Shown here: piece after piece, positions 34,210 through 60,878 of the stretch
Numbering within the stretch: position 1 is the stretch's first letter
Layout of the letters: each line of letters begins with the position of its first letter
Assembly (NCBI RefSeq): GCF_003595175.1
Contig: NZ_CP032419.1
Coordinates: 1,984,001 to 2,048,000 of the forward strand
Length of the DNA: 64,000 nt
Source of the DNA: Pseudomonas cavernae
Lineage (GTDB): Bacteria; Pseudomonadota; Gammaproteobacteria; Pseudomonadales; Pseudomonadaceae
Direction of reading: 5' to 3'
The notes under the pieces: generated by a model
Databases searched by the model: none
What the model was told of the DNA's origin: nothing
Seen by the model: only the letters and a program-made list of their open reading frames with translations
Position numbers and translations under genes: made by a program

Positions 34210-34219
34210 TTGTATACAA
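34210..34219. promoter_or_regulatory. Candidate operator TTGTATACAA before gcl
   Basis: Perfect 10-base palindrome 27 bases upstream of gcl. It is the same as the site at 56885 and close to those at 34359, 36081, 52113, 57067, 60505, 60869 and 50261. It fits FCD-type GntR operators. Confidence 0.65.
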
Positions 34220-34358
34220 AACAGCTGTGGTCGGATTCTATGCAGCCCTCGACTTGGCGGTCAAGAATTTTTCGGCGGCAAGTCCGGGCAGGGAAAGTTC
34301 TTTTAAAACGGCCGTTTGAGCAGGGCTGAAGGGGGGCTTAGGTGGCCGTCTACTTAGA

Positions 34359-34366
34359 TGTATACA
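34359..34366. promoter_or_regulatory. Candidate operator core TGTATACA before the GlcG-like gene
   Basis: Palindromic TGTATACA in the context GATGTATACAATAA, 157 bases upstream of the GlcG-like gene and beside the AT-rich part of the gap. Confidence 0.55.
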
Positions 34367-34522
34367 ATAACAATTAAAATTGTATCTATCTATTGAGTTT
34401 TTTGTTTTAGGTGGGATAGTGGAAAAAATCCATTTCGGCGCCCGTACGGTCGTTTTTGGCCACAAGGTCACGCCGGCCACGGACGCAGCAACAGGTCTTA
34501 TCCACTACAAGAGGCATAAACG

Positions 34523-34963
34523 ATGAGCACGTTGAACCTGGAAACCGCCACCCACATCGCCCAGCGCGCCCAGGCCACCGGCCGCGAGCTGCGGGCGGCG
34601 CCCCTGACCATTGCGGTGCTGGATGCCGGTGGTCATCTGATCAGTCTGCTGCGCGAGGACGGCGCCAGCATGCTCAGGCCGCAAATCGCCATCGGCAAAG
34701 CCTGGGGCGCGGTGGCCCTGGGCAAGGGCTCGCGGCTGATTGCCGCCGACGCCCAGCAGCGCCCGGCCTTCATCGGCGCGGTGAACAACCTGGCCGATGG
34801 CAACCTGGTGCCGGCTCCGGGCGGCGTGCTGATCCGTGATGAGCGCGGTGAGGTGATCGGTGCCATTGGCATCAGCGGCGACACTTCGGACATCGACGAG
34901 CAGTGTGCGATCAGTGGTGTCGAGGCCGCGGGGCTGAAGGCCGATGCCGGCGTAGCGGTGTGA
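34523..34963 (+). CDS. GlcG/HbpS family protein
   Basis: A 146-aa protein of the GlcG/HbpS family (DUF336). It shows APLTIAVLDAGGHLISLLREDGA and the repeated IGAIGISGDTSDIDEQCA pattern typical of the fold. Some members bind heme or cobalamin, and many lie beside glycolate or glyoxylate genes with no proven enzymatic role. It is divergent from gcl and shares its regulatory gap, so it is probably controlled with glyoxylate metabolism. Confidence 0.85.
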   Translation: MSTLNLETATHIAQRAQATGRELRAAPLTIAVLDAGGHLISLLREDGASMLRPQIAIGKAWGAVALGKGSRLIAADAQQRPAFIGAVNNLADGNLVPAPGGVLIRDERGEVIGAIGISGDTSDIDEQCAISGVEAAGLKADAGVAV

Positions 34964-34973
34964 TGCTGGAATC

Positions 34974-35046
34974 GTAGGATGGGTTGAGCAACGCGCTACC
35001 CATCAATCTGGCCGCATGGGTATCGCTGCGCTCAACCCATCCTACA
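34974..35046. repeat. Family A palindromic repeat, copy 3
   Basis: GTAGGATGGGTTGAGC on the left and ATGGGTATCGCTGCGC with CAACCCATCCTAC on the right, with GCTACCCATC within. It starts 10 bases after the stop of the GlcG-like gene and precedes a terminator. Confidence 0.85.
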
Positions 35047-35059
35047 AACAGCGATAACG

Positions 35060-35088
35060 AAAAAGGCGCGATCGAATCGCGCCTTTTT
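35060..35088. terminator. Bidirectional terminator between GlcG-like and TetR genes
   Basis: A perfect 13-base inverted repeat AAAAAGGCGCGAT/ATCGCGCCTTTTT with a CGA loop, with T-runs on both strands. It ends both convergent genes. Confidence 0.92.
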
Positions 35089-35107
35089 CGTGTCCGGGCC
35101 GGAATGA

Positions 35108-35746
35108 TCAGGCGCTTTTCACCTGCTCGCTGGCGACCGGCTCGGCCACCTCGCAGCCCTTGAGCACCAGGCGGATGATGGTTTCGGCGGCGGCCTCGTA
35201 GTCGGCATCGTCGAGCTTGGCCTTGCCGGTGACCGTGGAGATCTGCCAATCAAAGTCGGCGTAGGTCTGGGTTGCGGCCCAGATGCTGAACACCAGGTGA
35301 TGGGGGTCGACCTTGGCCATCAGACCCTGATCGATCCAGCGCTGCAGGCAGCCGATGTTGTGCTTGGCCTGGGCATTGAGTTGCTCGATCTGTTCCGCCG
35401 ACAGGTGCGGCGCGCCGTGCATGATTTCGCTGGCGAACACCTTGGAGGCGTAGGGCAGCTCGCGGGAAATGCGGATCTTCGAGCGGATGTAGGCCTTGAG
35501 CACCTGCGCCGGATGGCCGTCTTCGTTGAATGGCGCGGAGGCCGCCAGCAGCGGCTCGATGATGCTCTCGAGCACCTCGCGGTAGAGGTTCTCTTTCGAC
35601 TTGAAGTAGTAGTAGACATTGGGCTTGGGCAAGCCAGCCTTGGCCGCGATGTCGCTGGTCTTGGTGGCGGCGAAGCCCTTGTCGGCAAACTCTTCACTGG
35701 CCGCGCGCAGGATTTGTTCTTTATTGCGCTCGCGAATACTGCTCAT
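35108..35746 (-). CDS. TetR family regulator, RutR-like
   Basis: A 212-aa TetR-type repressor. The N-terminal helix-turn-helix (about 10-55) has EEFADKGFAATKTSDIAAKAGLPKPNVYYY. The ligand domain has FASEIMHGAPHLSAEQ, resembling RutR-type regulators of nucleobase metabolism. I start at ATG 35746 (MSSIRERNKEQIL), and an in-frame codon at 35779 is less likely. The effector is not known; the position between glyoxylate and MoaA genes hints at purine or pyrimidine catabolism. It is divergent from moaA across a 425-bp gap. Confidence 0.88.
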   Translation of the reverse strand: MSSIRERNKEQILRAASEEFADKGFAATKTSDIAAKAGLPKPNVYYYFKSKENLYREVLESIIEPLLAASAPFNEDGHPAQVLKAYIRSKIRISRELPYASKVFASEIMHGAPHLSAEQIEQLNAQAKHNIGCLQRWIDQGLMAKVDPHHLVFSIWAATQTYADFDWQISTVTGKAKLDDADYEAAAETIIRLVLKGCEVAEPVASEQVKSA

Positions 35747-35789
35747 AAGCCCCCTCAGGCTCCATATCTCTCGCCGCAACCTGCGGCAA

Positions 35790-35991
35790 CTCAGCCAGTG
35801 TGAAAACTACTGCACTCGGTTATGCAGCGTTACAAACAGGCTCGGAAAGCAGCTTGCTGCTAACGCGCTTTAGCGCGGCCCCGAAGGGGCGAGCGAAGCG
35901 AGTACTGCTCATTTACAACGCGTAAACTGCGCGTCCTCGCCTGTTTGTGCCTTGCCTAACCTTCGCTCGTGACGTTTTCACATTGGCTGAG
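35790..35991. repeat. Family D structured repeat, copy 2
   Basis: The terminal arms CTCAGCCAGTGTGAAAAC (35790-35807) and GTTTTCACATTGGCTGAG (35974-35991) pair over 18 bases with one G-U. The inner stem is ACAAACAGGC with GCCTGTTTGT. It also holds GCGCTTTAGCGC and GCTCATTTAC, shared with other copies. Confidence 0.82.
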
Positions 35992-36080
35992 ATAGGCGGT
36001 CGGGCATGGTAGCACCGGCTATTCCGGAGCCTCAACCGCTGCACTGGGCAGCCGCGGTGGCGAAATTGCCAAGGGGAATT

Positions 36081-36088
36081 TGTATACA
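36081..36088. promoter_or_regulatory. Candidate operator core TGTATACA before moaA
   Basis: TTTGTATACAGG, 84 bases upstream of the moaA start. It shares the 8-base palindromic core with the gcl and puuE sites. Confidence 0.55.
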
Positions 36089-36171
36089 GGATTGTTTTTT
36101 TCTGTTTTTATTCGGCATCCGTCCATGTCGCCGAAGTCCCGTTCCGGCGTGTGTTGCGGCAGAACTCCAAG

Positions 36172-37167
36172 ATGCAAGACAACGCTTTGCTCGACCCCTT
36201 TGGCCGGCGTATCACCTACCTGCGCTTGTCGGTCACCGATCGTTGCGATTTTCGCTGCACTTACTGCATGAGCGAGGACATGGTCTTCGCCCCGCGGGCG
36301 CAGATCCTTTCCCTCGAAGAGCTCTATACCGTGGCCGACGCCTTCATCGGCCTCGGCGTGAAGCGTATCCGCATCACCGGCGGCGAGCCGCTGGTGCGCA
36401 AGAACCTGCTCAGTCTGCTCGGCCGCCTCGGCGCGCGCCGCGAGCTGGACGACCTGGCGATCACCACCAACGGCTCGCAGCTGGCGCACCTGGCGTCGGA
36501 CCTGCGCGACGCCGGCGTCACCCGCCTGAACATCAGTCTCGATTCGCTGCAACGCGAGCGCTTTGCCGCCTTCACCCGCCGCGACAAGCTCGACCAGGTG
36601 TTCGACGGCATCGCCGTGGCGCGCCACGCCGGTTTCCGCCGCATCAAGCTGAATACCGTGGTGCAGAAGGGCCGCAACGACGACGAAGTGCAGGATCTGG
36701 TGGCCTTCGCGGTGGAGCAGGGCATCGACATCAGCTTCATCGAGGAGATGCCGCTGGGCAGCATTTCCAGCCACGAACGCAAGCACACCCTGTGCAGCAG
36801 CGACGAGGTGCGCGAGCGGGTGGCGCAGCGCTTCGAGCTGCTGCCCAGCAGCCACCGCACCGGCGGGCCGTCGCGCTACTGGCAGGTGCTCGGCAGCGAC
36901 ACCCAGGTCGGTTTCATCTCCCCGCACAGCCGCAACTTCTGCGGCGACTGCAACCGCGTGCGCGTCACCGCCGAGGGCAAGCTGGTGCTCTGTCTCGGCC
37001 ACGACGGCGCGCTGGACCTCAAGGCCTTGATCCGTCGTCATCCCGGCGACAGCGAGCGCCTGCGCGCGGCGCTGATCGACGCGCTGCGCTTGAAGCCCGA
37101 GCGGCATTGGTTCGATGCCGACGAGCAGGTGCAGGTCGTTCGCTTCATGAGCATGACCGGCGGCTGA
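36172..37167 (+). CDS. moaA: GTP 3',8-cyclase MoaA (molybdenum cofactor)
   Basis: Radical-SAM enzyme (331 aa) for the first step of molybdopterin synthesis. The N-terminal 4Fe-4S motif is CDFRCTYC, GGEPL follows, and the C-terminal cluster FCGDCNRVRVTAEGKLVLCL has the Cys-x2-Cys-x13-Cys spacing. The protein ends in the conserved GG. Xanthine dehydrogenase needs this cofactor, and its accessory gene xdhC lies at the right end of the window, so this copy is probably dedicated to purine oxidation. I start at ATG 36172; an upstream GTG at 36151 is possible, and no clear ribosome site decides between them. Confidence 0.95.
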   Translation: MQDNALLDPFGRRITYLRLSVTDRCDFRCTYCMSEDMVFAPRAQILSLEELYTVADAFIGLGVKRIRITGGEPLVRKNLLSLLGRLGARRELDDLAITTNGSQLAHLASDLRDAGVTRLNISLDSLQRERFAAFTRRDKLDQVFDGIAVARHAGFRRIKLNTVVQKGRNDDEVQDLVAFAVEQGIDISFIEEMPLGSISSHERKHTLCSSDEVRERVAQRFELLPSSHRTGGPSRYWQVLGSDTQVGFISPHSRNFCGDCNRVRVTAEGKLVLCLGHDGALDLKALIRRHPGDSERLRAALIDALRLKPERHWFDADEQVQVVRFMSMTGG

Positions 37168-37337: not shown

Positions 37338-38696
37338 ATGGCTAAGACGCTTCTGGTGAAAAACGCCGATCTACTGGTGACCATGGACGGCCAGCGCCGC
37401 GAGATCAAACAAGGCGGCCTGTATATCGAGGACAACCTGATCAAACAGGTGGGCCCCAGCGCCGAGTTGCCGCAAGTGGCCGACGAGGTGCTCGACCTCA
37501 AGGGCCATATCGTCATCCCCGGCCTGGTCAACACCCACCACCACATGTACCAGAGCCTCACTCGGGTGGTGCCGGCGGCACAGGATGGCGAGCTGTTCAA
37601 CTGGCTGACCAACCTCTACCCGATCTGGGCGCGGCTGACCCCGGAGATGATCGCGGTGTCGACCCAGACGGCCATGGCCGAGCTGATCCTCTCCGGCTGC
37701 ACCACTTCCAGTGATCACCTGTACATCTACCCCAACGGCTGCAAGCTGGACGACAGCATCCACGCCGCCAAGGAGATCGGCATGCGCTTCCATGCCGCGC
37801 GCGGCAGCATGAGTGTCGGCCGTAGCCAGGGCGGCCTGCCGCCAGACTCGGTGGTGGAGAAGGAGGCCGACATCCTCAAGGAATCGCAGCGCCTGATCGA
37901 GGACTACCACGACGCCAACCACGGTTCGATGCTGCGCGTGGTGGTCGCGCCCTGTTCGCCGTTCTCGGTGAGCCGCGACCTGATGCGCGAGGCGGCGGTG
38001 CTGGCGCGCCAGTACGGTGTGTCGCTGCACACCCACCTGGCCGAGAACGTCAACGACATCGCCTACAGCCGCGAGAAGTTCGGCATGACCCCGGCCGAAT
38101 ACGCCGAAGACCTCGGCTGGGTCGGCCATGACGTCTGGCATGCCCACTGCGTACAGCTCGACCAGCATGGCATCGACTTGTTCGCGCGCACCGGCACCGG
38201 CGTCGCCCATTGCCCCTGCTCGAACATGCGCCTGGCTTCGGGCATCGCGCCGATCCGCAAGATGCGCGACGCCGGCGTGCCGGTTGGCCTCGGCGTCGAC
38301 GGCTCGGCCTCCAACGACGGCGCGACCATGATCGGCGAGGTGCGCCAGGCCCTGCTGCTGCAGCGCGTCGGTTTCGGTCCGGACGCGATGACCGCCCGCG
38401 AAGCGCTGGAGATCGCCACCCTCGGCGGCGCCAAGGTGCTCAACCGCGACGACATCGGGGCGTTGGCGCCGGGCATGGCGGCCGACTTCGTCGCCTTCGA
38501 CCTCAAGCAGATCGCCTTCGCCGGCGCCTTGCACGATCCGCTGGCGGCGTTGGTGTTCTGCGCGCCGACCCAGGTCTCCCACAGCGTGATCAACGGTCAG
38601 GTGGTGGTGAAGGCGGGGCAGCTCACCACCGTCGACCTGCCACGTGTGTTGGAACGCCACAACCGCCTGGCGCGGCAACTGGTGGCCGGGGAGTGA
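37338..38696 (+). CDS. 8-oxoguanine deaminase (amidohydrolase)
   Basis: A 452-aa metal-dependent amidohydrolase. Metal ligands are visible in NTHHHMYQSLTR, HTHLAENVND, HAHCVQLDQHG and LGVDGSASNDG. This close set, without the atrazine-specific context, fits 8-oxoguanine deaminase, which converts 8-oxoguanine to urate plus ammonia. P. aeruginosa PA0142 is the known example of the activity; equivalence here is inferred. Its product would enter the PuuD-UraH-UraD route in this window. A family D remnant separates it from moaA. Confidence 0.82.
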   Translation: MAKTLLVKNADLLVTMDGQRREIKQGGLYIEDNLIKQVGPSAELPQVADEVLDLKGHIVIPGLVNTHHHMYQSLTRVVPAAQDGELFNWLTNLYPIWARLTPEMIAVSTQTAMAELILSGCTTSSDHLYIYPNGCKLDDSIHAAKEIGMRFHAARGSMSVGRSQGGLPPDSVVEKEADILKESQRLIEDYHDANHGSMLRVVVAPCSPFSVSRDLMREAAVLARQYGVSLHTHLAENVNDIAYSREKFGMTPAEYAEDLGWVGHDVWHAHCVQLDQHGIDLFARTGTGVAHCPCSNMRLASGIAPIRKMRDAGVPVGLGVDGSASNDGATMIGEVRQALLLQRVGFGPDAMTAREALEIATLGGAKVLNRDDIGALAPGMAADFVAFDLKQIAFAGALHDPLAALVFCAPTQVSHSVINGQVVVKAGQLTTVDLPRVLERHNRLARQLVAGE

Positions 38697-41661: not shown

Positions 41662-41682
41662 CCAACCAGCGAGACGGATCTC

Positions 41683-48798: not shown

Positions 48799-49025
48799 AG
48801 AGCCTGTTTACGATCTGCTGCGCGTCGGCCATATGGCGTTAAAAATGGCCTCGGCAAGCCACTTGTGGCTAACGCGCTTTAGCGCGGCCCCGACGGGGTG
48901 AGCGCAGCGAGTCATGCTCATTTACAGCTCGTAAACTCCGCTTCCTCGGCCATTTTGACCAGCCTTCGGCTGTTACTGCGTTGCGCCTTGTCTGGCTCTA
49001 GCTCGCGAGATCCGAGACAGGCTCT
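48799..49025. repeat. Family D structured repeat, copy 3 (longest)
   Basis: The arms AGAGCCTGTTTACGATCT (48799-48816) and AGATCCGAGACAGGCTCT (49008-49025) pair at 15 of 18 positions. The inner stem is AAAATGGCC with GGCCATTTT. It shares GCTAACGCGCTTTAGCGCGG with copy 2 and GCTCATTTACAGCT with copy 1. The right arm touches the stop codon of the Tsx-like gene. Confidence 0.82.
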
Positions 49026-49879
49026 TAGAAGTGGTACTTGACCAGCGCCTGCACGGCGGTCTGGTCGAAGCCGTCGGTGGAGCCGTCGACCGGCTTCACC
49101 CCGTACTTGTTGTGCCACATGTTCAGCTCGGTGCCGACGTAGAGCTTGCGCTCCTCGCCGAACAGCTGCTTGCCGGCATCCCACTTGATCTGGATGGACG
49201 AGCCCAGCGAGGTCTGGGTGTTGGCCTCGTCGGAGGGGGAGCGCCAGTCGATGAAACCGTCGACCAGGAAGCTCTGGTTGCCGATGGCGAAGGGGTAGGC
49301 GCCGGCGATGGTCAGTTGGGTGGCGTAGCCGTTGCTGTTTTGGTCGGCGAAGAACACCTGGTTGTTGATCTTCACCTGGTACAGGTTGGTCTGCAGGAAG
49401 GCGAAGCCGGGTACGTCCCAGTCCAGGCCGATGCCGTACAGGTAGTTCTCGGTGCCGGGACCGCCGTCGCCTTTTTCCAGGGTGAAGGCCGCTTTCACGT
49501 CCTTGATCGGGCCGACCGAGAGGTCCTGGCCGGTCAGCCAGCTGAGGCTGACGCGCGGCTGGAATTCCATGTAGTAGAAGCTGTTCTTCTCATGCTGGCG
49601 GAAGCTGTTGTTGGCGAAGCTGCCGCGCGACTGCAGGTTGTCGGCGCGGATGTAGTCGGCGAAGTAGAACACATCGCCCCAGGCCCAGCCGCTGGCGTGC
49701 TCGAAGGTGAAGGTGGTCTGGGTGCGCTGCTCTTCTTCGTTGAAGTTCATCCGCTGGAAGTTTTCGCCGTACAGGTAGGTCAGGCTGTTGTCCTGCCATT
49801 GCAGTAGGTCGCCGGCCATCGCTTGGGCGCCGAAGGCCAGGCCGCCGGCCAGCATCAGGGTGGGAAGAGAACGGTTCAT
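49025..49879 (-). CDS. Tsx-like nucleoside-specific outer membrane channel
   Basis: A 284-aa outer-membrane beta-barrel protein of the Tsx/OmpK family. It has a signal peptide (about 1-22, ending AQAMA), alternating strand pattern throughout, and a C-terminal Phe (ALVKYHF), as expected for BAM-assembled barrels. Typical parts are SLTYLYGENF and WHNKYGV. Tsx lets nucleosides through, so it fits the purine genes on its right. A TTGTGCACAA palindrome stands 382 bases upstream. Confidence 0.88.
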   Translation of the reverse strand: MNRSLPTLMLAGGLAFGAQAMAGDLLQWQDNSLTYLYGENFQRMNFNEEEQRTQTTFTFEHASGWAWGDVFYFADYIRADNLQSRGSFANNSFRQHEKNSFYYMEFQPRVSLSWLTGQDLSVGPIKDVKAAFTLEKGDGGPGTENYLYGIGLDWDVPGFAFLQTNLYQVKINNQVFFADQNSNGYATQLTIAGAYPFAIGNQSFLVDGFIDWRSPSDEANTQTSLGSSIQIKWDAGKQLFGEERKLYVGTELNMWHNKYGVKPVDGSTDGFDQTAVQALVKYHF

Positions 49880-50260: not shown

Positions 50261-50270
50261 TTGTGCACAA
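50261..50270. promoter_or_regulatory. Operator-like palindrome TTGTGCACAA
   Basis: Perfect palindrome in AT-rich sequence, 382 bases upstream of the Tsx-like gene. It differs from the gcl site only in the two central bases (GC for AT) and may be a weaker member of the set. Confidence 0.4.
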
Positions 50271-50606: not shown

Positions 50607-51965
50607 TTAGTTGCAGTGATTGCCGCAGAGGTGCGCGCGATTTTCGCCGAGCATGTTGAACAGCAGGTTGAGCGTGATGGCCCAGAGCGCGGTCATGGCG
50701 ATGCCGCTGTGGGTGATCGGCTCCAGCCAGTGCGGCAGATGGGCGAAGAAGTCCGGACGCACCACCGGCACCATGCCCATGCCGATGCTCACGGCAACCA
50801 GCAACTGGTTGCGGCGGTCGCTGATGTCGGCCTCCTGGAGGATGCGGATGCCACTGGTGGCGACCATGCCGAACATGGCGATGCCGGCGCCGCCGAGTAC
50901 CGCCGGCGGGATCGAGGCGACCAGGAAGGCGGCCTTCGGCAGCAGGCTGAGGGCGATCAGGAACAGTGCGGCGGCGGCGGTGACGTAGCGGCTACGTACG
51001 CCGGTCATCTGCACCAGGCCGATGTTCTGGGCGAACGATGAGTGGGTGAAAGTGTTGAAGAAGCCGGCGATGAACGAGGCGCTGGCGTCGCACAGCAAGC
51101 CGCGGCGCAGGCGCTGTGGGGTGATCTCGGTATCGGTGAGTTGGCCCAAGGCGAGGAACATGCCGGTGGACTCGACGAAAATGATCACCACCACCAGGCA
51201 CATGGCAAGCACCGGCGCCAGATGAAATTCCGGCATGCCGAAGTGCAGCGGCGTGACTACGTCGAACACGGGCCGTTCGCTCATACCGCCGAGATCGACC
51301 ATGCCCATGCAGGCGGCGATCGCGTAGCCCAGACCCATGCCGAGCAGCACCGAGATGTTGACCCAGAAACCCTTCATGAAGCGGTTGATCAGCAAAATGC
51401 TGATCAGTACCAATGACGACAGGGCGAGGAACTCCGGGGCGCCGAAGTTGGCCGCGTCCTTGCCACCACCGGCCCAGTTGATCGCCACCGGGAACAGGCA
51501 CATGCCGATCGAGGTGATCACCGTGCCGGTTACCAGCGGTGGGAAGAAGCGCACGATGCGGCTCATGAACGGGGCGATCAGGATGCCGAAGAAGCCGGCG
51601 GCGATGGTGGCGCCAAAGATACCGGGCATGCCGACGCCGGGCATCCCGGTCATCGCCACCATGCTGCCGACCGCGGCGAAGCTGGCGCCCATCATCACCG
51701 GCATGCGGATGCCCACCGGGCCGATGCCAAGGGACTGGATGAGGGTGGCGATGCCGGCGACCAGCAGGTCGGCGTTGATCAGGAAAGCGATTTCATCACG
51801 CGACAGGCCGGCGGCCTGACCGACGATCAGCGGCACGGCGACGGCGCCGCCATACATCAGCAGGACATGTTGGAAACCCACCAGCAGCAGTTGCAGCAAG
51901 GGCAGGCGTTGATCGACCGGCGAGACAGTTCCGGCGGGGGCGGGACAGGCGGTTGTCTCGGACAT
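50607..51965 (-). CDS. NCS2/NAT family urate or xanthine permease
   Basis: A 452-aa membrane transporter with about 12-14 helices. The NAT signature appears as QNIGLVQMTG, and other family marks are GIRMPVMMGASFAAV and FVESTGMFLALGQ. NAT proteins carry urate, xanthine or uracil by proton symport. PuuD (urate) lies next upstream, so urate or xanthine is the likeliest substrate. A TGTATACA core is 148 bases before its ATG. Confidence 0.9.
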   Translation of the reverse strand: MSETTACPAPAGTVSPVDQRLPLLQLLLVGFQHVLLMYGGAVAVPLIVGQAAGLSRDEIAFLINADLLVAGIATLIQSLGIGPVGIRMPVMMGASFAAVGSMVAMTGMPGVGMPGIFGATIAAGFFGILIAPFMSRIVRFFPPLVTGTVITSIGMCLFPVAINWAGGGKDAANFGAPEFLALSSLVLISILLINRFMKGFWVNISVLLGMGLGYAIAACMGMVDLGGMSERPVFDVVTPLHFGMPEFHLAPVLAMCLVVVIIFVESTGMFLALGQLTDTEITPQRLRRGLLCDASASFIAGFFNTFTHSSFAQNIGLVQMTGVRSRYVTAAAALFLIALSLLPKAAFLVASIPPAVLGGAGIAMFGMVATSGIRILQEADISDRRNQLLVAVSIGMGMVPVVRPDFFAHLPHWLEPITHSGIAMTALWAITLNLLFNMLGENRAHLCGNHCN

Positions 51966-52112
51966 AAATTACCTCGGCTTTTTATTGTTGTCGGGTTACT
52001 GGCGATCACAGGAATGATCAGGCAGCGGGTATCGAGCATCCGACGTACCCTCCGGCCCGAAGGGTGGGGCGGGAGTTTAGCGATACGGCGTGTGTTGTCT
52101 GCAAACGCTTTC

Positions 52113-52120
52113 TGTATACA
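52113..52120. promoter_or_regulatory. Candidate operator core TGTATACA before the NCS2 permease
   Basis: TCTGTATACATT, 148 bases upstream of the permease start and downstream of the puuD terminator. Confidence 0.55.
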
Positions 52121-52210
52121 TTTTTGTAAGCATCCGCTGACCTGACGGTCACCCGGATCGACTTCAATCTGGTCCTGAGCTCCTGGAATATCTCCTCTGC
52201 GCGGCAGCAC

Positions 52211-52282: not shown

Positions 52283-53605
52283 TCAGTCGGTATGGGCGCC
52301 CTGGGCGATCCATTGGCCGATCAGTTCACGCTCTTCCGGGGTCATCTGGGTGATGTTGCCCAGCGGCATGATCTGCGAGGCCACCGCCTGCGCCTGGATC
52401 TTCGGCGCCAGCTGCTGAATCTGCTGCGGCGTATCGAACATCACCCCGGCCGGGGCAGCGCTGAACATCGGGCTGGTCGGCTTGGCCGAGTGGCAGACCG
52501 TGCAACGTTCCTGGATCACGCTATGCACTTTCGCGAAGGCCGGGCCGGCGGCCTGGGCCTGGGCGGGAGCTGCGGCGCTGGCCGGGGCGGCGGGCTTGGC
52601 GGCCTGCTCCTGTTCCAGCTGCTCGGCAGTCTTGCCACCGATGGCGGTTGCCGGCAGCGGCTGGTACTCGAGCTCCTGGACCTTGCTCACGCTCTCGACC
52701 GTGGTCGGTTGCAGGCTGGGGCCGGTGACGAAGGCCAGGCAGAGCATGCCCACTGCGCCAGCCGGCAGGGTCCAGGCGAACTTGTTGCTGTCGTGGCGGG
52801 TGTTGAAGTAGTGACGCACCAGTACCGCGATCACCGCGATCCCGGCCAGGATCAGCCAGTTGTACTCACTGCCGTAAGTGCTCGGGAAGTGGTTGCTGAT
52901 CATGATGAACAGCACCGGCAGGGTGAAGTAGTTGTTGTGGCGCGAGCGCAGCAGGCCCTTGGCCGGCAGCACCGGGTCCGGCGTGCGGTTCTCCTCGATC
53001 GCCTTAACCAGTGCACGCTGGGCCGGCATGATGACGCGGAACACGTTGCCGACCATGATGGTGCCGATCAGCGCGCCGACGTGGATGTACGCGCCCCGGC
53101 CGCTGAACACTTGAGCATAGCCCCAGGCTGCGGCGATGACCAGGATGAACAGCACCAGGCCGAGCAGCGCCGGCTTCTTGCCCAGCGGCGAGTCGCAGAG
53201 GAAGGCATAGACGAACCAGCCGACGATAAGCGAGCCGAAGCCGATGGCGATGGCCGCCGCCGGGGCGAGCTCGACGCCCGGTTTGATCAGGTACAGGCTC
53301 GGGTTGAGGTAATAGACCACCATCAGCAGGGCAACGCCCGACATCCAGGTGAAGTAGGCCTCCCATTTGAACCAGTGCAGGTTGTCCGGCATTTTCGGCG
53401 GGGCCAGCTTGTACTTCTCCAGGTGGTAGATACCGCCACCATGGATAGCCCACAGGTCACCGGACAGCCCGTCGCGCGGGTTGGCGCGGTTGAGATTGTT
53501 CTCCAGCCAGACGAAGTAGAACGATGCACCGATCCAGGCAATGCCGGTGATCATGTGTACCCAACGAATGCCCAGGTTCAGCCATTCAATCAGATGTGCT
53601 TCCAC
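52283..53605 (-). CDS. puuD: Urate hydroxylase PuuD (membrane, cytochrome c domain)
   Basis: A 440-aa inner-membrane urate-oxidising protein. There are eight or so membrane helices in residues 1-320, opening with WVHMITGIAWIGASFYFVWLE. An Ala/Pro/Gln linker (about 325-355) is followed by a C-terminal cytochrome c domain with the heme motif CTVCH at 368-372 and an axial Met in QIMPLGNITQM. PuuD replaces soluble uricase in many proteobacteria, making 5-hydroxyisourate. It needs heme insertion by the ccm system. The start is GTG 53605. It is the last gene of the operon. Confidence 0.94.
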   Translation of the reverse strand: MEAHLIEWLNLGIRWVHMITGIAWIGASFYFVWLENNLNRANPRDGLSGDLWAIHGGGIYHLEKYKLAPPKMPDNLHWFKWEAYFTWMSGVALLMVVYYLNPSLYLIKPGVELAPAAAIAIGFGSLIVGWFVYAFLCDSPLGKKPALLGLVLFILVIAAAWGYAQVFSGRGAYIHVGALIGTIMVGNVFRVIMPAQRALVKAIEENRTPDPVLPAKGLLRSRHNNYFTLPVLFIMISNHFPSTYGSEYNWLILAGIAVIAVLVRHYFNTRHDSNKFAWTLPAGAVGMLCLAFVTGPSLQPTTVESVSKVQELEYQPLPATAIGGKTAEQLEQEQAAKPAAPASAAAPAQAQAAGPAFAKVHSVIQERCTVCHSAKPTSPMFSAAPAGVMFDTPQQIQQLAPKIQAQAVASQIMPLGNITQMTPEERELIGQWIAQGAHTD

Positions 53606-53655
53606 AGTTGTTTCCTCTTTCTCCCGTCACCGGCACGCCGGCTTTGGGTCTTCTC

Positions 53656-54159
53656 TTATTGGTGGGGGTCGAGGAGGAGCTGCTCGTCCTCGGTGAAGAA
53701 GTGCTCATCGCAGTTGTTGCCAGAACCACTGCGATCAACCACCAGGAAGTCATCCCGCTTTTCGATCGTCAGCACCGGGTGGTGCCAGACGCCGCGATGG
53801 TAATTAACGCCCTGCCTGCCATTAGAGAGGAAGGCACGGACCAGGCCCGGTACAGGTGCATCGCCAAGTGGCGCGACCACGACCAGAAAGGAGTTGCCGA
53901 GCAGCGGAATGAAGGCCTGGCTGCCCAGCGGATGGCGCTCCAGCATGCGGATGCGCAGCGGCATCTGCAGCGCCTCGGCACTGAAGATGCTGATGATCGC
54001 CTTATCCTCCGGCTGCGCGGTCTCGACCGTGGCCAGTTTGTGATAGCGGCGGGTGGAGCCGTTGTTGATCATGAAGTAGTCGCTGTTGTCGGTTTCGATC
54101 ACGTCACCGAAGGGGGCGAAGGCTTCTTTAGTCAGCGGCTCGATTATCAGTTTGCGCAT
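53656..54159 (-). CDS. allA: Ureidoglycolate lyase AllA
   Basis: A cupin-fold enzyme (167 aa) that splits ureidoglycolate into glyoxylate and urea. It opens IIEPLTKEAFAPFGDVIE and has the typical MLERHPLGSQAFIPL and YHRGVWHHPVL. Its product glyoxylate feeds Gcl at 32408, and the urea fits the transporter at 26159. A family B repeat fills the gap to alc upstream. Confidence 0.95.
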   Translation of the reverse strand: MRKLIIEPLTKEAFAPFGDVIETDNSDYFMINNGSTRRYHKLATVETAQPEDKAIISIFSAEALQMPLRIRMLERHPLGSQAFIPLLGNSFLVVVAPLGDAPVPGLVRAFLSNGRQGVNYHRGVWHHPVLTIEKRDDFLVVDRSGSGNNCDEHFFTEDEQLLLDPHQ

Positions 54160-54185
54160 GCTGGTTCTGCTTGTTCGTTTCTGTT

Positions 54186-54294
54186 TCCCCCTCTTCCATT
54201 CATGGGAGAGGGGCCGGGGGAGAGGGTTGAGCTGTTACGCGCCAATTTCCCTCTCCCGCCCTTCGGGCACCCTCTCCCATAAATGGGAGAGGGG
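54186..54294. repeat. Family B repeat, copy 3
   Basis: Two hairpin units with CCCTCTCCC/GGGAGAGGG arms, in the 144-bp gap between alc and allA. It lies inside an apparent operon. Confidence 0.85.
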
Positions 54295-54303
54295 AAAGCA
54301 CAG

Positions 54304-55299
54304 TTACTTCGCCGCCTTGCCAAACAGGCGCAGACGGCTGACGCCACCGTCCGGGAACACGTTCAGGCGGATGTGGGTGATCGGGCCGAGCTTGGCGATC
54401 TGCTCGGCGAACTCGTGCTCGGCGTGCATCGACAGCTTCTGGCTCGGTAGCAGTTCGCGCCAGAACAGGCTCTGGGTCTCGATCTGCGCGTCGGTACCGC
54501 CTTTCACGTAAGCGCCCTGGATCGAGCAGCTGTCCGGGTAGTTGCCCTTGAAGTGCAGGGTATCGACGACGATGCGCTCGATCTCGCCCGGATGGCCGAG
54601 GGCGACGATCACCCAGTCGTTGCCCGGGGTGCGGCGGCGCGCGGTTTCCCAGCCGTCGCCCATGTTGATGCCGCGGCCCGGGTTGAGGATGTTGCTCATG
54701 CGGCCGAAGTGCTCGTCAGAACAGGCCAGGGCACGGCCACCGTTCAGCGCGGCAGCCAGGTCGATCTGTTCGTTGTCGCCGACCGAGCTCCAGTCGCGGA
54801 ACGGGATGCCGTACACGCGCAGGCGCGCCACGCCGCCATCCGGGTAGATGTTGAAGCGCAGGTGGGTGAAGGCCTGCTCGTTGGCGATCTCGTGGTAGTG
54901 GTGGCTGTTGCCCTGCAAGGTCACCGCCGGTAGCACTTCGGTCCAGACGGTGGCGTCGCTCGGGTCGCCCTCGGCGACGAAGCAGGCTTCCAGCGAAGCC
55001 GATGGCGGGAAGTTGCCGGTGAAGTGGCTGGTGTCGATGTCCACGCCCTTGATCGAGCCCGGCACGCCGAGGCGGATCACCGCGCTGTCGTAGCCTTCGA
55101 AGCGCTTGCGGCGCGATTCCCAGCCGTCCATCCACTTGCCGTTATCGTCGAACACGCCCTCCTTCCAGACCGCCGGGGTCGGCTGGAATAGCCGGTTGAC
55201 GTCGGCGAACCAGTCGTCGGTGACGGAAATGGCCTTGGTGCCGAGGCGGGCGTCGGCGAGGTTGACGTATTTCTCGAAGGGTACGGCGTAAGCTTTCAT
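54304..55299 (-). CDS. alc: Allantoicase
   Basis: Allantoicase (331 aa) turns allantoate into ureidoglycolate and urea. It has two similar halves, a known feature of the family: [21 protein letters not shown] in the first and [21 protein letters not shown] in the second, as well as two [16 protein letters not shown] motifs. It lies between uraD and allA in pathway order. Confidence 0.96.
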
Positions 55300-55350
55300 G
55301 TACGAGTCTGCCTTGAATGGAGGGCGGGAGAGGGGCGGCCAGTCGCCGGC

Positions 55351-55866
55351 TTACAGGGTCTGCAGCCGGAACAGCGCGATCTTGTTGATCTCGGCCAGGG
55401 CCCGGAGGAATTCGGCTTCGCGCGAGTTGTGAATGCGCTCTTCGAAGGCCGCCAGGATCTGGTGCCGGTTGCTGCCTTTAACCGCCATGATGAAGGGAAA
55501 CGCGAACTTCGCTTTGTAGGCGTCGTTCAGCTCGGTGAAGCGCTGGAACTCTTCAGCCGTGCATTCGTGGATGCCGGCACCGGCCTGTTCGCTGGTGCTG
55601 GCTTCGGTCAGTTCGCCGCGGATGGCGGCCTTGCCGGCCAAGTCCGGGTGCGCGTTGATCAGCGCCAGCTGGGCGGCATGCTCGGCGCTCAGGAGGATGT
55701 CGGCCATGCGCTGATGCAAGGCTTCAATCTCGTCGACGCTGGCGTCCAGCCCCAGGTCGTAGGCCTTCTCGGCCACCCAGGGCGAATGTTCGTAGATGTC
55801 GGCGAAGGCGGCGACGAATTCGTCACGGCTCAGCTGGGACGGAGTCAGAGTCTGGAAGCGGCTCAT
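55351..55866 (-). CDS. uraD: OHCU decarboxylase UraD
   Basis: A 171-aa helical protein that decarboxylates 2-oxo-4-hydroxy-4-carboxy-5-ureidoimidazoline to S-allantoin. Motifs are YEHSPWVAEKAY near 27-38, the INAHPDLAGKAA block with the catalytic His near 70-80, and ERIHNSREAEFLRALAEI near the end. It starts within the last bases of puuE (ATGA overlap), so the two are coupled. Confidence 0.96.
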   Translation of the reverse strand: MSRFQTLTPSQLSRDEFVAAFADIYEHSPWVAEKAYDLGLDASVDEIEALHQRMADILLSAEHAAQLALINAHPDLAGKAAIRGELTEASTSEQAGAGIHECTAEEFQRFTELNDAYKAKFAFPFIMAVKGSNRHQILAAFEERIHNSREAEFLRALAEINKIALFRLQTL

Positions 55867-56807
55867 TTCGCGCTCTCCTGCTTGTTGTTCTCAGAGAATG
55901 GGTGAGTGGTGTGCCAGTGGCGGGCGATGTCGACGCGGCGGGCGAACCACACCTGCTCATGGCCTTTGACGTAATCGATGAAGCGCGCGAGTGCGGCCAG
56001 GCGCGCCGGGCGGCCGAGCAGGCGGCAGTGCATGCCGATCGACAGCATCTTCGGCGCACCTGCGGCACCCTCGGCGTAGAGCACGTCGAAGGCGTCCTTC
56101 AAATAGTTATAGAAGTCGTCGCCGCTGTTGAAACCCTGCACCTGGGTGAAGCGCATGTCATTGGTGTCCAGGGTGTAGGGAATCACCAGATGTGGCTTGC
56201 CGGTCGGGTTGTTGGCTTCCCAGTAGGGCAGGTCGTCGTCGTAGGTGTCGGAGTCGTAGAGGAAGCCGCCTTCCTCCATCACCAGCCGGCGGGTGTGCGG
56301 CCCGGTGCGGCCGGTGTACCAGCCGAGCGGGCGCTCGCCGGTCAGCTCGGTGAGGATGCGGATGGCCTCGAGCATGTGCTCGCGCTCCTGCGCCTCGTCC
56401 ATGTACTGGTAGTCAATCCAGCGGTAGCCGTGGCTGCAGATCTCATGGCCGTCGGCGACCATGGCCTTGATCACCTCGGGGTGGCGCTGGGCGGCCATGG
56501 CCACGGCGAACACGGTCAGCGGAATGTCGTGCTGCTTGAACAGTTTGAGCAGGCGCCATACGCCGGTGCGGCTGCCGTACTCGTACAGCGACTCCATGCT
56601 CATGTTGCGCGCGCCCTGCAACGGCTGGGCGGCGACCATCTCGGAGAGGAACGCCTCGGACTCCTTGTCGCCGTGCAGCACGCAGCGCTCGCCGCCTTCC
56701 TCGTAATTGAGCACGAAGGACAGCGCGATGCGCGCGTTGCCCGGCCAGTGCGGGTGAGGAGGGTTGTTGCCATAGCCGATCAGGTCGCGTGGGTAGTCAG
56801 CACTCAC
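55863..56807 (-). CDS. puuE: Allantoinase PuuE
   Basis: A 314-aa allantoinase of the polysaccharide-deacetylase fold, distinct from the amidohydrolase AllB. It begins MSADYPRDLIGYGNNPPHPHWPG and has NYEEGGERCVLHGD, HEICSHGYRWIDYQ and FNSGDDFYNYLKD. It hydrolyses allantoin to allantoate. It is the first gene of the puuE-uraD-alc-allA-puuD operon. A TTGTATACAA lies 78 bases upstream, flanked by a further 9-base inverted repeat. Confidence 0.96.
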   Translation of the reverse strand: MSADYPRDLIGYGNNPPHPHWPGNARIALSFVLNYEEGGERCVLHGDKESEAFLSEMVAAQPLQGARNMSMESLYEYGSRTGVWRLLKLFKQHDIPLTVFAVAMAAQRHPEVIKAMVADGHEICSHGYRWIDYQYMDEAQEREHMLEAIRILTELTGERPLGWYTGRTGPHTRRLVMEEGGFLYDSDTYDDDLPYWEANNPTGKPHLVIPYTLDTNDMRFTQVQGFNSGDDFYNYLKDAFDVLYAEGAAGAPKMLSIGMHCRLLGRPARLAALARFIDYVKGHEQVWFARRVDIARHWHTTHPFSENNKQESAK

Positions 56808-56884: not shown

Positions 56885-56894
56885 TTGTATACAA
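56885..56894. promoter_or_regulatory. Candidate operator TTGTATACAA before puuE
   Basis: Perfect palindrome 78 bases upstream of puuE, the same as the gcl site. It overlaps the 9-bp inverted repeat TACAAAGTG/CACTTTGTA at 56890-56912. Confidence 0.68.
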
Positions 56895-57066: not shown

Positions 57067-57076
57067 TTGTGTACAA
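57067..57076. promoter_or_regulatory. Candidate operator TTGTGTACAA before uraH
   Basis: One central base differs from the palindromic form. It lies 153 bases upstream of uraH. Confidence 0.58.
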
Positions 57077-57228: not shown

Positions 57229-57582
57229 ATGGGACGTTTAACCACGCATGTACTGGATGCCGCACACGGCTGCCCTGGCAGCGCGATCACGGTCAAGCTG
57301 TACCGGGTCGAAGGCGAACAGCTGGAACTGATCAATACCGTGCAGACCAACCATGACGGCCGTTGCGACGCGCCGCTGCTGCAGGGTGACGACTACCGTT
57401 CCGGGGTCTATCAGCTGCAGTTCCACGCCGGCGACTACTACCGTGCCCGTGGCGTCGCGCTGCCCAACCCGGCCTTCCTCGACGTGGTAGTGCTGCGCTT
57501 CGGCATCGACGCCGGCCAAGACCACTATCACGTACCGCTGCTGATTTCGCCCTACAGCTATTCCACCTATCGCGGCAGCTAG
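57229..57582 (+). CDS. uraH: 5-hydroxyisourate hydrolase UraH
   Basis: A transthyretin-like enzyme (117 aa) that hydrolyses 5-hydroxyisourate to OHCU. It has GRLTTHVLDAAHGCPG at the start, the middle Arg/Asp region, HYHVPLLISPYSYSTY near the end and the C-terminal signature YRGS. It is the step between PuuD and UraD. It is divergent from the puuE operon, and a terminator follows 50 bases after the stop. Confidence 0.97.
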   Translation: MGRLTTHVLDAAHGCPGSAITVKLYRVEGEQLELINTVQTNHDGRCDAPLLQGDDYRSGVYQLQFHAGDYYRARGVALPNPAFLDVVVLRFGIDAGQDHYHVPLLISPYSYSTYRGS

Positions 57583-57659: not shown

Positions 57660-57660
57660 G

Positions 57661-57832: not shown

Positions 57833-57841
57833 AGTCCATCG

Positions 57842-57914: not shown

Positions 57915-58023
57915 GGTGCTGCACAGTTCGACGGTGATCGCCAGTTAGCCGGTTCCCGCAAAAGGCTGTGACACGCAACTGGGACATAGCCTTCTTTGGC
58001 TCGGTGATTGAGCGGCCGACAGT

Positions 58024-58050
58024 AAAAGGCCCGGCTTTGGGTCGGGCTTC
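58024..58050 (-). terminator. Possible terminator after the LysE-type gene
   Basis: On the - strand AAGCCCG and CGGGCCTT pair with one bulge, followed by TTT. It lies about 170 bases beyond the stop, so the link to that gene is uncertain. Confidence 0.4.
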
Positions 58051-58221
58051 GTGGCTTGAAGAAGGCGTTGCCGGAGATAGCATCGGCCGCGCGGCGCCGG
58101 ACTTGGCCTGGCACGGAGTGCATGGGCGTCAGCTGCAGCGCCTGCCCGCGCAGGAACCTGTGCGACCTTGAGTCTGCGTGTGCCGCAGGCGCTGGTGGCC
58201 AGCGCTCAGTAGGGACGACTC

Positions 58222-58848
58222 TTAGCGGCTCAACAGCGACGCCGTGCCGGCACCGGCAAACAGCCCGGCGCTGATACGGTTGAACCACACCTGGCCCTTG
58301 CCCGAGCGCAGGAAGCGCGCGGCGCCGTGGGCGCTGAGGCCGTAGAACAGCTTGCAGGCGAGATCGAGCACCACCCAACTGGCGATCAGTATCAGCAACT
58401 GCGTGAGCAATGGGCGCTCGGCGCTGAGGAACTGCGGCAGGAAGGCGGCGAAGAACAGGATGTCCTTGGGGTTGCTGGCGCCCAGGCCGAAGGCTTTCCA
58501 GAACATGCTGCGAAAGCTCGGGTTGACCGGTTGCTCCTCGGCATTGCGCGGTTGGGCCGCGCGGCGCGACTCGCGCCAGCTCTGCCAGCCGAGATAGAAC
58601 AGGTACAGCGCGCCGACGATCTTCAGCGCGCTGAAGAGTTTTTCCGAGGCCAGCAGCAGGGCGCCGAGGCCGAGGGCTGAAGCACTGAGCAGGCACAACG
58701 AGGCAGACACCCCGCCGAGAAAGCTCGGCAGCGAGCGGCGCAGGCCGTAGTTGAGGGTGTTGCTGATCATCAGCAGCGACAGCGGCCCGGGGATGAGGAT
58801 CACGATCAACGCCGCACTACAGAACAGCAGCCAGGTTTCCAGACTCAT
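58222..58848 (-). CDS. LysE/RhtB family exporter
   Basis: A 208-aa inner-membrane exporter with about six helices. The N-terminal segment LIPGPLSLLMISNTLNYGLRR is the usual LysE motif, and GASNPKDILFFAAFLPQF is conserved in the RhtB branch. Such proteins export amino acids such as homoserine, threonine or lysine; the substrate here is unknown. It has no visible operon partner, and a family C-like hairpin stands before it. Confidence 0.9.
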   Translation of the reverse strand: MSLETWLLFCSAALIVILIPGPLSLLMISNTLNYGLRRSLPSFLGGVSASLCLLSASALGLGALLLASEKLFSALKIVGALYLFYLGWQSWRESRRAAQPRNAEEQPVNPSFRSMFWKAFGLGASNPKDILFFAAFLPQFLSAERPLLTQLLILIASWVVLDLACKLFYGLSAHGAARFLRSGKGQVWFNRISAGLFAGAGTASLLSR

Positions 58849-58873
58849 TGCATTCCCTCACGAATAAAAACGG

Positions 58874-58933
58874 TCGCAGGAGCGGCCCAGGACCGCGAAA
58901 TGTTGCGAATCGCGGCGATGGGCCGCTCCTACA
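58874..58933. repeat. Family C-related hairpin repeat, copy 3
   Basis: GCAGGAGCGGCCC and GGGCCGCTCCTAC arms, with CGCGAA and TTGCGAATCGCGGC in the loop. It shares only the outer GTAGGAGCGG module with copies 1 and 2. Confidence 0.65.
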
Positions 58934-58953
58934 AAGTTACGTGCACCGGAATG

Positions 58954-58984
58954 AAAAAGGCCCAGTCGCGGTGCGGCTGGGCCC
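58954..58984 (-). terminator. Terminator after the AzgA-type permease
   Basis: An 11- to 12-bp stem GGCCCAGYCGC with one G-U and a 3-base loop, followed on the - strand by five T. It lies 20 bases after the stop. Confidence 0.9.
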
Positions 58985-59004
58985 GGTGGCGCGTGGCTGC
59001 AAGC

Positions 59005-60354
59005 TTACAGGAAGATAAACTTGGCTACAAAAATTGCGCAAAGTGCATACAGGCTGCTGGAGATGTCCTTGTGCTTGCCGGTGAACAGTTTCATCACCAC
59101 GTAGGTGATGAAGCCCATGGCGATGCCGTCGGCGACCGAGAAGGTCAGCGGCATCATGATCACGGTGACGATCGCCGGGATGGTTTCGGTGTGCTCGTTC
59201 CAGTCGATGTGGGCCATGCCGCCCATCATCAGCATGGCGACGTAAATCAGCGCGCCGGCGGTGGCGTAGGCGGGGATCATGCCGGCCAGCGGGGCGAAGA
59301 ACATCGCCGCGACGAACAGCGCGCCAACCACCACTGCGGTCAGCCCGGTGCGGCCGCCGGCGGCAACGCCTGCGGCGCTTTCCACGTAGCTGGTCACCGG
59401 CGGTACGCCGAGCACGCCGCCGAGTACGCTGGAGGCGCTATCGGCCTTCATCGCCTTGGACAGATTCTCGATGCGCCCGTCTTCTTTCACCAGGTGCGCG
59501 CGCTGGGCTACGCCCATCAGCGTGCCGGCGGTGTCGAACATGTGCACGAAGAGGAAGGCCAGGATCACGCTGATCATGGTCACGTCGAAGGCGCCGGTGA
59601 TGTCCATCGCCATGAAGGTCGGTGCCAGGCTCGGCGGCATGGAGAACACGCCGCCGAACTTGACCAGGCCGAGGGCGACGCCGGCCAGGGTGACGGTGAG
59701 GATGCTGATCAGGATGGCGCCGAACACGCGGCGGTATTCCAGCACCGCGATCATCAGGAAGCAGATCGCGGCGAGCAGCGGGCCGGGGGCGGTGAGATCG
59801 CCGATATGCAGCAGGGTGGCCGGATGGGCGACCACTATGCCTGCGGTTTTCAGGCCGATCAGACCGAGGAATAGCCCGACCCCGGCGCCCATGGCGAAGC
59901 GCAAGCTGCTGGGGATGCTGTTGAGCAGCCATTCGCGAATGCGAGAGAAGGTCAGCACCATGAACAGCACGCCGGAGATGAACACCGCACCGAGGGCGAT
60001 CTGCCAGCTGTAGCCCATGGTTTGCACCACGGTGTAGGTGAAGAAGGCGTTGAGGCCCATGCCCGGCGCCAGGCCGACCGGCCAGTTGGCGTACAGGCCC
60101 ATCAGGAAGCAGCCGAGCGCCGCGGCCAGGCAGGTGGCGACGAAGGCGGCGCCGTGATCGACACCGGCATCGGCCATGATGTTGGGGTTGACGAAGATGA
60201 TGTAGGCCATGGTGATGAAGGTGGTCAGACCGGCGGCCAGCTCGGTTTTGACGGTGGTGCCGTGCAGGCTCAGCTTGAACAGGCGTTCCAGCAGGCCCGT
60301 GCCGGCAGGGCGTACAAGCGGGATACTTTGTTGTTCTTGTTTGGTGCTTTCCAC
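59005..60354 (-). CDS. Guanine/hypoxanthine permease (AzgA/NCS2-type)
   Basis: A 449-aa membrane transporter with about 12 helices. The family marks are GLTTFITMAYIIFVNPNI, APGMGLNAFFTYTVV, FVHMFDTAGTLMGVA and VTSYVESAAGVAAGGRTGL. AzgA proteins take up guanine, hypoxanthine or adenine with protons. It is divergent from the GntR gene and near guanine deaminase, so guanine or hypoxanthine uptake is likely. The start is GTG 60354. A TTGTGTACAA lies 151 bases upstream. Confidence 0.92.
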   Translation of the reverse strand: MESTKQEQQSIPLVRPAGTGLLERLFKLSLHGTTVKTELAAGLTTFITMAYIIFVNPNIMADAGVDHGAAFVATCLAAALGCFLMGLYANWPVGLAPGMGLNAFFTYTVVQTMGYSWQIALGAVFISGVLFMVLTFSRIREWLLNSIPSSLRFAMGAGVGLFLGLIGLKTAGIVVAHPATLLHIGDLTAPGPLLAAICFLMIAVLEYRRVFGAILISILTVTLAGVALGLVKFGGVFSMPPSLAPTFMAMDITGAFDVTMISVILAFLFVHMFDTAGTLMGVAQRAHLVKEDGRIENLSKAMKADSASSVLGGVLGVPPVTSYVESAAGVAAGGRTGLTAVVVGALFVAAMFFAPLAGMIPAYATAGALIYVAMLMMGGMAHIDWNEHTETIPAIVTVIMMPLTFSVADGIAMGFITYVVMKLFTGKHKDISSSLYALCAIFVAKFIFL

Positions 60355-60504
60355 AGCGGGGTACTCCTCATCTCTTTTGTTTTGTTCACCCAGAACCGTA
60401 GGCGTGTGCCTGGGGTTCTCTGAGGCAGGTGGTGTGAGCGGTGCGCTTTCTGGTCGGGTTTAGTTGACCTGAGAGTCAGAAATCGTACGAGCGCGATTAT
60501 GCGT

Positions 60505-60514
60505 TTGTGTACAA
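60505..60514. promoter_or_regulatory. Candidate operator TTGTGTACAA before the AzgA-type permease
   Basis: It lies 151 bases upstream of the permease start in AT-rich sequence, and is the same 10-mer as at 57067 and 60869. Confidence 0.6.
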
Positions 60515-60868
60515 AAAAAGCAAATATTGTTTATATTGTTGCGAAAATTGATCCTATCGATTGTCGCCGGGTGGAAGGGCCGATTGCATGCGACAATCGT
60601 GCTGCGCTCAAATTTCAAGAAAGTCTTTAAAAACAATAGGCTATAGACGTGGATTGGTGTTTGGCGCGGCTTGTAAGCGACATCAGAAGTGGCGTCGACG
60701 GGTGGATAAAGCGAGTCGAGTAGGGCGGAATTTGCTATTAATGAGTCTGTTAGGAAGAAAATGTACTGAAAGCCAGGTCGGTTTTGTCGTCAATCTATGG
60801 CGCTGTCGCGCCCCGGACGGTCGACCATAAAAGCAGTGATGGCTTGTAAGGTGTGGGTGTAGGTTAAA

Positions 60869-60878
60869 TTGTGTACAA
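60869..60878. promoter_or_regulatory. Candidate operator TTGTGTACAA before the GntR gene
   Basis: It lies 107 bases upstream of the regulator start, consistent with autoregulation. Confidence 0.6.

Follow-up and report, generated by a model that had tools for sequence, protein, structure and literature searches.

The window analysed here, a stretch of 64,000 nucleotides of Pseudomonas cavernae (contig NZ_CP032419.1, positions 1,984,001 to 2,048,000), holds genes for glyoxylate use, purine uptake and the conversion of urate to glyoxylate, a gene for molybdenum-cofactor supply (moaA2) and the gene of a GntR-family regulator with an FCD domain (Table 1). The gaps between these genes carry nine copies of a palindrome with the core TGTRYACA, which in its full form reads TTGTRYACAA. 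On comparative evidence we regard it as highly probable that the nine palindromes are operators of the GntR/FCD protein encoded at 60985, the likely orthologue of UgmR, through which it would control the purine, glyoxylate and cofactor genes. The regulator itself is already known from Pseudomonas aeruginosa, as is its core regulon there, and the UgmR motif may already be in print. The part worth pursuing is the link to the chemoreceptor gene mcpH, to a second permease and to the cofactor genes.

The original prediction described nine shared sites, all intergenic, with none in the first 34 kb, and all nine are present exactly where it had placed them. The cores start at 34211, 34359, 36081, 50262, 52113, 56886, 57068, 60506 and 60870; 100 shuffles gave a mean of 1.66 cores and none reached nine. 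All nine lie between genes identified by profile searches, and positions 1-34 kb contain no TGTRYACA core. Six sites have the full 10-mer (shuffle mean 0.08), while those at 34358 (ATGTATACAA), 36080 (TTGTATACAG) and 52112 (CTGTATACAT) have the core only. The sites are close to the genes named for them, with distances from the centre of the site to the start codon of the open reading frame (ORF) list of 31.5 bases for gcl, 160.5 for the GlcG-like gene, 66.5 for moaA, 386.5 for tsx, 151.5 for NCS2, 82.5 for puuE, 157.5 for uraH, 155.5 for the AzgA-type permease and 111.5 for the GntR gene. The tsx site is thus the farthest from its gene, and site 52112 is weak. In the 4.95-Mb single-contig genome the full 10-mer occurs 13 times, against four occurrences of a reversed-control pattern, and six of the 13 fall inside one 27-kb stretch. 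The motif is therefore not equally common beside unrelated genes.

A weight matrix was derived from 112 distinct sites, chosen by their core, at four promoters of UgmR relatives. It ranks the nine window sites at the top, with 27.2, 26.7, 24.7, 24.0, 23.4, 20.8, 15.7, 10.4 and 7.3 bits, and the best-scoring non-member in the window reaches 3.8 bits. The best score in each of 60 random sequences averaged 7.7 bits, with a maximum of 19.2; the lowest window score, 7.3 bits, belongs to site 52112. A promoter scan at gcl found one promoter-like match, where 0.7 are expected by chance, and its second hexamer (34240-34235, minus strand) lies upstream of the 34210 box. The same scan of 56800-61000 gave two matches against 1.2 expected.

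Conservation of the box was followed in the best 80 of 532 loci with a UgmR relative, whose titles name Pseudomonas apart from one Pseudomonadaceae and one Pseudomonadales bacterium, using the 400 bases upstream of each gene. The full 10-mer was found upstream of puuE in 30/30 loci, of uraH in 32/32, of azgA in 42/42 and of ugmR in 79/80, where the core is present in all 80. It was found upstream of none of 74 guaD, 30 ohcu, 15 alc and four NCS2-relative genes, and upstream of one of 13 Tsx relatives. TTGT tops the list of the 256 four-base half-sites scored on either side of an RY centre, with 195 occurrences in 1.55 Mb; rearrangements of its letters occur 0-4 times. When the sequences are aligned by their core, identity is 0.73-0.99 in the 12 columns of the box, the inner eight being alike by construction, and 0.32-0.70 in the flanks.

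The remaining promoters are conserved to different degrees. The gap between gcl and glcG holds two cores, a proximal one at -34 to -36 and a distal one at -152 to -195 from gcl, in 27/30 loci; the other three have no core inside 400 bases and carry high-scoring sites elsewhere. Upstream of moaA2 a core is present in 12 of 15 orthologues, at -65 to -75 in 11 of them, and in none of 15 moaA paralogues. One of the three core-less moaA2 genomes, G001, also lacks UgmR. The box at 52112 recurs in just two of 30 NCS2 loci, those of the present genome and of G027, where it is a full 10-mer. For the box at 50261, the comparison covers the 12 other genomes whose tsx gene is at least 65% identical to that of the window; each has a core ahead of its permease-tsx or tsx-only unit. 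In most of these the permease of the unit is a different NCS2 protein, 31-36% identical to the one in the window. Genes 40-43% identical to the window tsx have no core within 400 bases (0/17).

The protein encoded at 60985 is 80% identical to the P. aeruginosa GntR cluster P0092, with 100% query coverage. The P0092 record is not labelled PA1520, and the identity with PA1520 leans on gene order too. The order of the window genes is that of P. aeruginosa PA1498-PA1520 as given in PMC12694930 (cited here, like the other papers, from the accessible parts of the text); the candidate ugmR adjoins the allantoin/urate cluster and the AzgA-type permease, and the gcl cluster is nearby. Gene order and the 80%-identical homologue together make the protein a likely orthologue of UgmR (PA1520). 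In P. aeruginosa, UgmR (Xu et al. 2022) is reported to bind ahead of gcl and of PA1513-PA1518 and to repress gcl and the allantoin cluster, relief coming from uric acid and not from allantoin; a UgmR motif derived by systematic evolution of ligands by exponential enrichment (SELEX) is also mentioned (PMC12694930). Three UgmR histidines, H150, H193 and H215, belong to the positions conserved in 78 or more of the 80 orthologues and would presumably fit the metal site usual for FCD domains. A search of viral contigs for relatives of UgmR found none.

The FCD-type GntR protein had been singled out as the binder in the original prediction, which also placed import, ring breakdown, the supply of cofactor and the use of glyoxylate under a single control. 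The promoter-specific conservation, and box counts that track the GntR gene, argue for both proposals. With a best E below 1e-100 as the criterion, 89 of 99 genomes of the genus have a UgmR orthologue and ten have none. Genomes with UgmR average 15.3 motif sites and those without it 4.3 (2.52 versus 0.85 per Mb), while the reversed control averages 5.7 and 3.5. The distant genome G097 has 22 sites, of which 15 were examined; seven lie at gcl (two), puuE/uraH (two), azgA, ugmR and an NCS2 paralogue, and an eighth precedes an NCS1 permease.

Several observations weigh against an assignment of the boxes to UgmR. The ranking by the matrix is partly built in because the training sites were picked by their core, and the random maximum exceeds the scores of three of the nine window sites. 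The sequences of the relatives are themselves related, so that their counts are not independent, and the rank test on the site counts (p about 1e-6 for the motif, 0.12 for the control) ignores kinship. Nine of the ten genomes without UgmR also lack gcl, and the loss of boxes there may in part be a loss of targets. Six genomes with UgmR have just 5-8 sites each (G018, G020, G022, G056, G066 and G094); gcl is absent from G018, G056, G066 and G094 and present in G020 and G022. G076, a 650-contig assembly, has no UgmR match, yet it has 11 sites, with cores at gcl and mcpH. Some boxes of other genomes precede genes unconnected with purines, such as that of a copper-binding protein in G097, and a box is hence not always a purine operator. 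Finally, allantoin also induces gcl by a route said to be independent of UgmR (PMC12694930), and further control must therefore exist.

Other binders have to be considered alongside UgmR. The RutR-like TetR protein encoded at 35108, which scores 174.6 bits against the RutR model and is thus below the cut-off of 368, had been put forward as an alternative for some sites. Its gene sits in the cluster, its counterpart PA1504 is an open candidate for control of gcl (PMC12694930), and among the 99 genomes its orthologue is never missing where UgmR is present. Against this, the four genomes that have the TetR protein and lack UgmR contain 6, 6, 3 and 5 sites, with controls of 4, 3, 2 and 7. These low counts disfavour the TetR protein, and we think it very improbable that any of the boxes, let alone all, are bound by it. 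A different GntR/FCD protein, either a paralogue or the counterpart of PA0120, would be an unlikely but more serious contender, as true binder or by sharing the boxes with UgmR. In its favour, PMC12694930 cites SELEX data that place a PA0120 site at gcl, the motifs of FadR-type GntR proteins are alike (PMC4494728), and many genomes of the genus carry a second FCD-GntR protein 39-52% identical to UgmR. Seven genomes, all with the mcpH box, nevertheless have no second FCD-GntR among the matches listed, which extend to about 1e-41 (G000, G027, G060, G063, G075, G078 and G082). Two more, G026 and G043, have the paralogue without UgmR and contain just 6 and 3 sites. The box before ugmR itself is also kept in nearly all loci. 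A paralogue as sole binder is disfavoured by the low counts in G026 and G043 and by its absence from the matches listed for the seven genomes.

Chance is a further explanation, as gaps are richer in AT than genes and a lone weak site such as 52112 could have arisen in this way. Enrichment, conservation at fixed promoters and the excess of TTGT over its rearrangements leave chance next to no credibility for the set as a whole and lead us to reject it there; 52112 by itself may still be a chance site.

Outside the window, a site at genome coordinate 4350704 lies 118 bases before the chemoreceptor gene mcpH. The product has dCache_1 and HAMP domains (Pfam), and the best match of its ligand domain is McpH (PDB 8bmv, 1.9e-75). 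At the positions of the McpH purine motif, Y, R, W and F are kept and N replaces D169. The combination YRWFN is among the receptor variants listed in PMC11245519, where the D169N change made in McpH lowered the affinity for adenine 80-fold. With the dCache_1PU purine motif Y-R-W-F-D/N present, the protein is predicted to be a purine chemoreceptor. A core is found upstream of mcpH in 52 of 54 genomes of the genus (20/20 and 32/34), which include two with broken matches (G034, G076); the full 10-mer is found in 33, and G022 and G065 have no core there. Six of the 52 sites (L353, L356, L359, L361, L365 and L367) have the sequence GTGTATACAC and low scores of 2.2-5.5 bits. They keep the core and its position with changed outer bases, and may be a decayed operator or the site of another regulator. 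McpH occurs in 53 of the 89 genomes with UgmR and in one of the ten others (G076), with p 0.005 when kinship is ignored. Purines raise the mcpH transcript in Pseudomonas putida (PMC6363813, citing López-Farfán et al. 2017). No report of UgmR control over mcpH was found in a literature search whose coverage mostly excludes subscription journals.

There is also a second NCS2 permease, which shares 45-49% identity with that of the window. A core lies upstream of its gene in 20/20 genomes, 15 of them with the full 10-mer; the 20 were picked from a longer list, and G015 and G057 were picked with knowledge of the box there. In the present genome this box reads ATGTATACAA and lies at -89. In PAO1, PA1507 and PA2938 both serve the uptake of xanthine and uric acid (PMC11633122), and the second permease would be of the PA2938 type. 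A box of the present genome, at 1228323, stands some 50 bases ahead of moaC, the product being MoaC by profile. Boxes also precede NCS1 permeases in G017, G057 and G097. In the literature searched, a core before mcpH, the second NCS2 permease, moaA2 or moaC was not found in print. We think it likely, judging from sequence comparison, that in much of Pseudomonas UgmR represses not only the breakdown pathway but also mcpH, two kinds of purine importer and genes for the molybdenum cofactor. If this is true, the first intracellular urate would switch on the seeking, import and digestion of purines together, and the purine induction of mcpH in P. putida would be explained.

Other off-window copies were not counted as operators. 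The 10-mer at 2708661 is inside an isocitrate dehydrogenase gene, those at 553381 and 4403453 are inside long ORFs, the latter with no Pfam match, and that at 1574410 is between ORFs near a RES-domain gene. A full box at G000:C1:1490216-1490225 (L003:1501-1510) separates two divergent genes, one for a glyoxalase-fold protein and one for an ABM-domain monooxygenase; no link to purines is evident. Sites reading TGTATACAA are found near ORF starts at G000:C1:2495084 (L303) and G000:C1:4345924 (L304), with matrix scores of 19.1 and 9.8. In G057 (L310) and G015 (L320) a 10-mer lies between cyclopropane-synthase-type and pyridine nucleotide-disulphide oxidoreductase genes, with no purine link.

A model of the control can be drawn from these data, in which we infer binding, repression, the effector and the limits of operons, and in which box positions, conservation, co-occurrence with the regulator and profile-based gene identities are observed. 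One UgmR dimer would occupy each box, one half-site per subunit, and block transcription; a single dimer per box is suggested by the palindrome and by the known behaviour of FadR-type GntR proteins. The repressor would keep the genes for purine uptake, for the urate-to-glyoxylate route, for glyoxylate use and for the molybdenum cofactor off until uric acid binds. Uric acid is most likely the effector here, by analogy with the published P. aeruginosa work. It would arise inside the cell through xanthine dehydrogenase, or enter by import, and once bound in the FCD domain would release UgmR from the box. No box lies at guaD, whose product works ahead of urate in the pathway, and boxes are found at importers and at genes from urate onward; this pattern fits a pathway induced by its own intermediate. 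Xanthine dehydrogenase needs the molybdenum cofactor. The boxes at moaA2 and moaC would tie the supply of this cofactor to the same urate signal. The genes from puuE to urate oxidase, behind the puuE box, would form one operon. The 8-oxoguanine deaminase gene may belong to the regulon by its position behind moaA2.

Table 1. Genes and palindromic boxes of the purine and glyoxylate region, in positions of the window
Feature	Position	Strand	Basis
gcl, hyi-like and glxR-like genes (glyoxylate use)	30469..34183	-	Pfam families; names via gene order in PMC12694930
Box TTGTATACAA before gcl	34210..34219	.	full 10-mer; proximal core
Box ATGTATACAA, GlcG-like side of gcl gap	34358..34367	.	core only; distal core
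HbpS/GlcG-like gene	34523..34963	+	Pfam PF03928
RutR-like TetR regulator, PA1504-like by position	35108..35779	-	Pfam TetR_N, TetR_C_3
Box TTGTATACAG before moaA2	36080..36089	.	core only
moaA2, GTP 3',8-cyclase	36151..37167	+	NCBIfam TIGR02666 above cut-off
8-oxoguanine deaminase, behind moaA2	37338..38696	+	NCBIfam NF006055, 777 bits vs cut-off 532
Tsx-type outer-membrane channel	49025..49879	-	Pfam PF03502
Box TTGTGCACAA between NCS2 permease and tsx genes	50261..50270	.	core kept in 12/12 relatives
NCS2 xanthine permease, PA1507-like	50607..51965	-	Pfam PF00860; NCBIfam TIGR03173 above cut-off
Box CTGTATACAT before NCS2 permease	52112..52121	.	weak; core only
puuE, OHCU decarboxylase, allantoicase, ureidoglycolate lyase and urate oxidase genes	52283..56807	-	Pfam PF01522, PF09349, PF03561, PF04115, PF06181
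Box TTGTATACAA before puuE	56885..56894	.	full 10-mer
Box TTGTGTACAA before uraH	57067..57076	.	full 10-mer
uraH, 5-hydroxyisourate hydrolase	57229..57582	+	Pfam PF00576
AzgA-type purine permease, PA1519-like by position	59005..60354	-	Pfam PF00860
Box TTGTGTACAA before AzgA-type permease	60505..60514	.	full 10-mer
Box TTGTGTACAA before ugmR	60869..60878	.	full 10-mer
GntR/FCD regulator, likely UgmR (PA1520) orthologue	60985..61755	+	Pfam PF00392, PF07729 above cut-off

In profile searches the domain of the urate oxidase is Urate_ox_N, and the PuuE-like enzyme has the deacetylase fold. A full chemotaxis set (two receptors, CheA, CheW, CheR, CheD and CheB) lies inside the purine cluster at 39880-48740, between the genes for 8-oxoguanine deaminase and a solute-binding protein on one side and tsx on the other. 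One of the two receptors has HAMP_N3 and PAS domains. We take the set to resemble the Che2 set of P. aeruginosa. No TGTRYACA box lies directly before it. A dispersed repeat has two exact 26-base copies in the window, at 35859-35884 and 48868-48893, and a 21-base stretch near the latter copy recurs upstream of mcpH (L012:1671-1691), elsewhere in the genome.

The window mainly contributes a further species and an operator sequence with which genomes can be scanned. What the present analysis adds to the original prediction is the likely orthology with UgmR, the reported uric-acid effector and the off-window cores at mcpH, the second NCS2 permease and moaC. The new part would be the reach of the proposed control, in which one repressor would link taxis, transport and cofactor supply to catabolism. 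How an attractant comes to switch the gene of its own chemoreceptor thereby becomes a question that one deletion mutant can address.

The regulator resembles P. aeruginosa UgmR in its GntR family, in the gene order beside the allantoin cluster and in the 80%-identical homologue there. The reported UgmR targets, gcl and PA1513-PA1518, correspond to boxed genes here, and the accessible account of UgmR in PMC12694930 names no control of mcpH, moaA2, moaC, tsx or a permease; Xu et al. 2022 may do so. As in the FadR subfamily of GntR proteins (PMC4494728), an FCD domain goes with a GT/AC palindrome that has a short centre and A and T flanks. The FadR consensus NyGTM-N0-1-KACNy (PMC4494728) fits GTATAC, whereas GTGTAC and GTGCAC boxes depart from it at M/K in one or both halves. 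The GTATAC centres within TGTATACA (34210, 34358, 36080, 52112 and 56885) fit M/K, and the remaining four (three GTGTAC, one GTGCAC) depart from it. P. putida McpH binds purines and mediates taxis (PMC11245519, PMC6363813). The receptor here is like it in its 8bmv ligand-domain match and in the kept Y, R, W and F, and unlike it in the N at D169. AllR of Escherichia coli belongs to the IclR family. Like AllR, for which a title is listed in PMC12694930, the system described here would place purine breakdown products and glyoxylate use under one regulator. It differs in that the AllR title speaks of the sensing of allantoin and glyoxylate, whereas the regulator here is a GntR/FCD protein with a reported response to urate.

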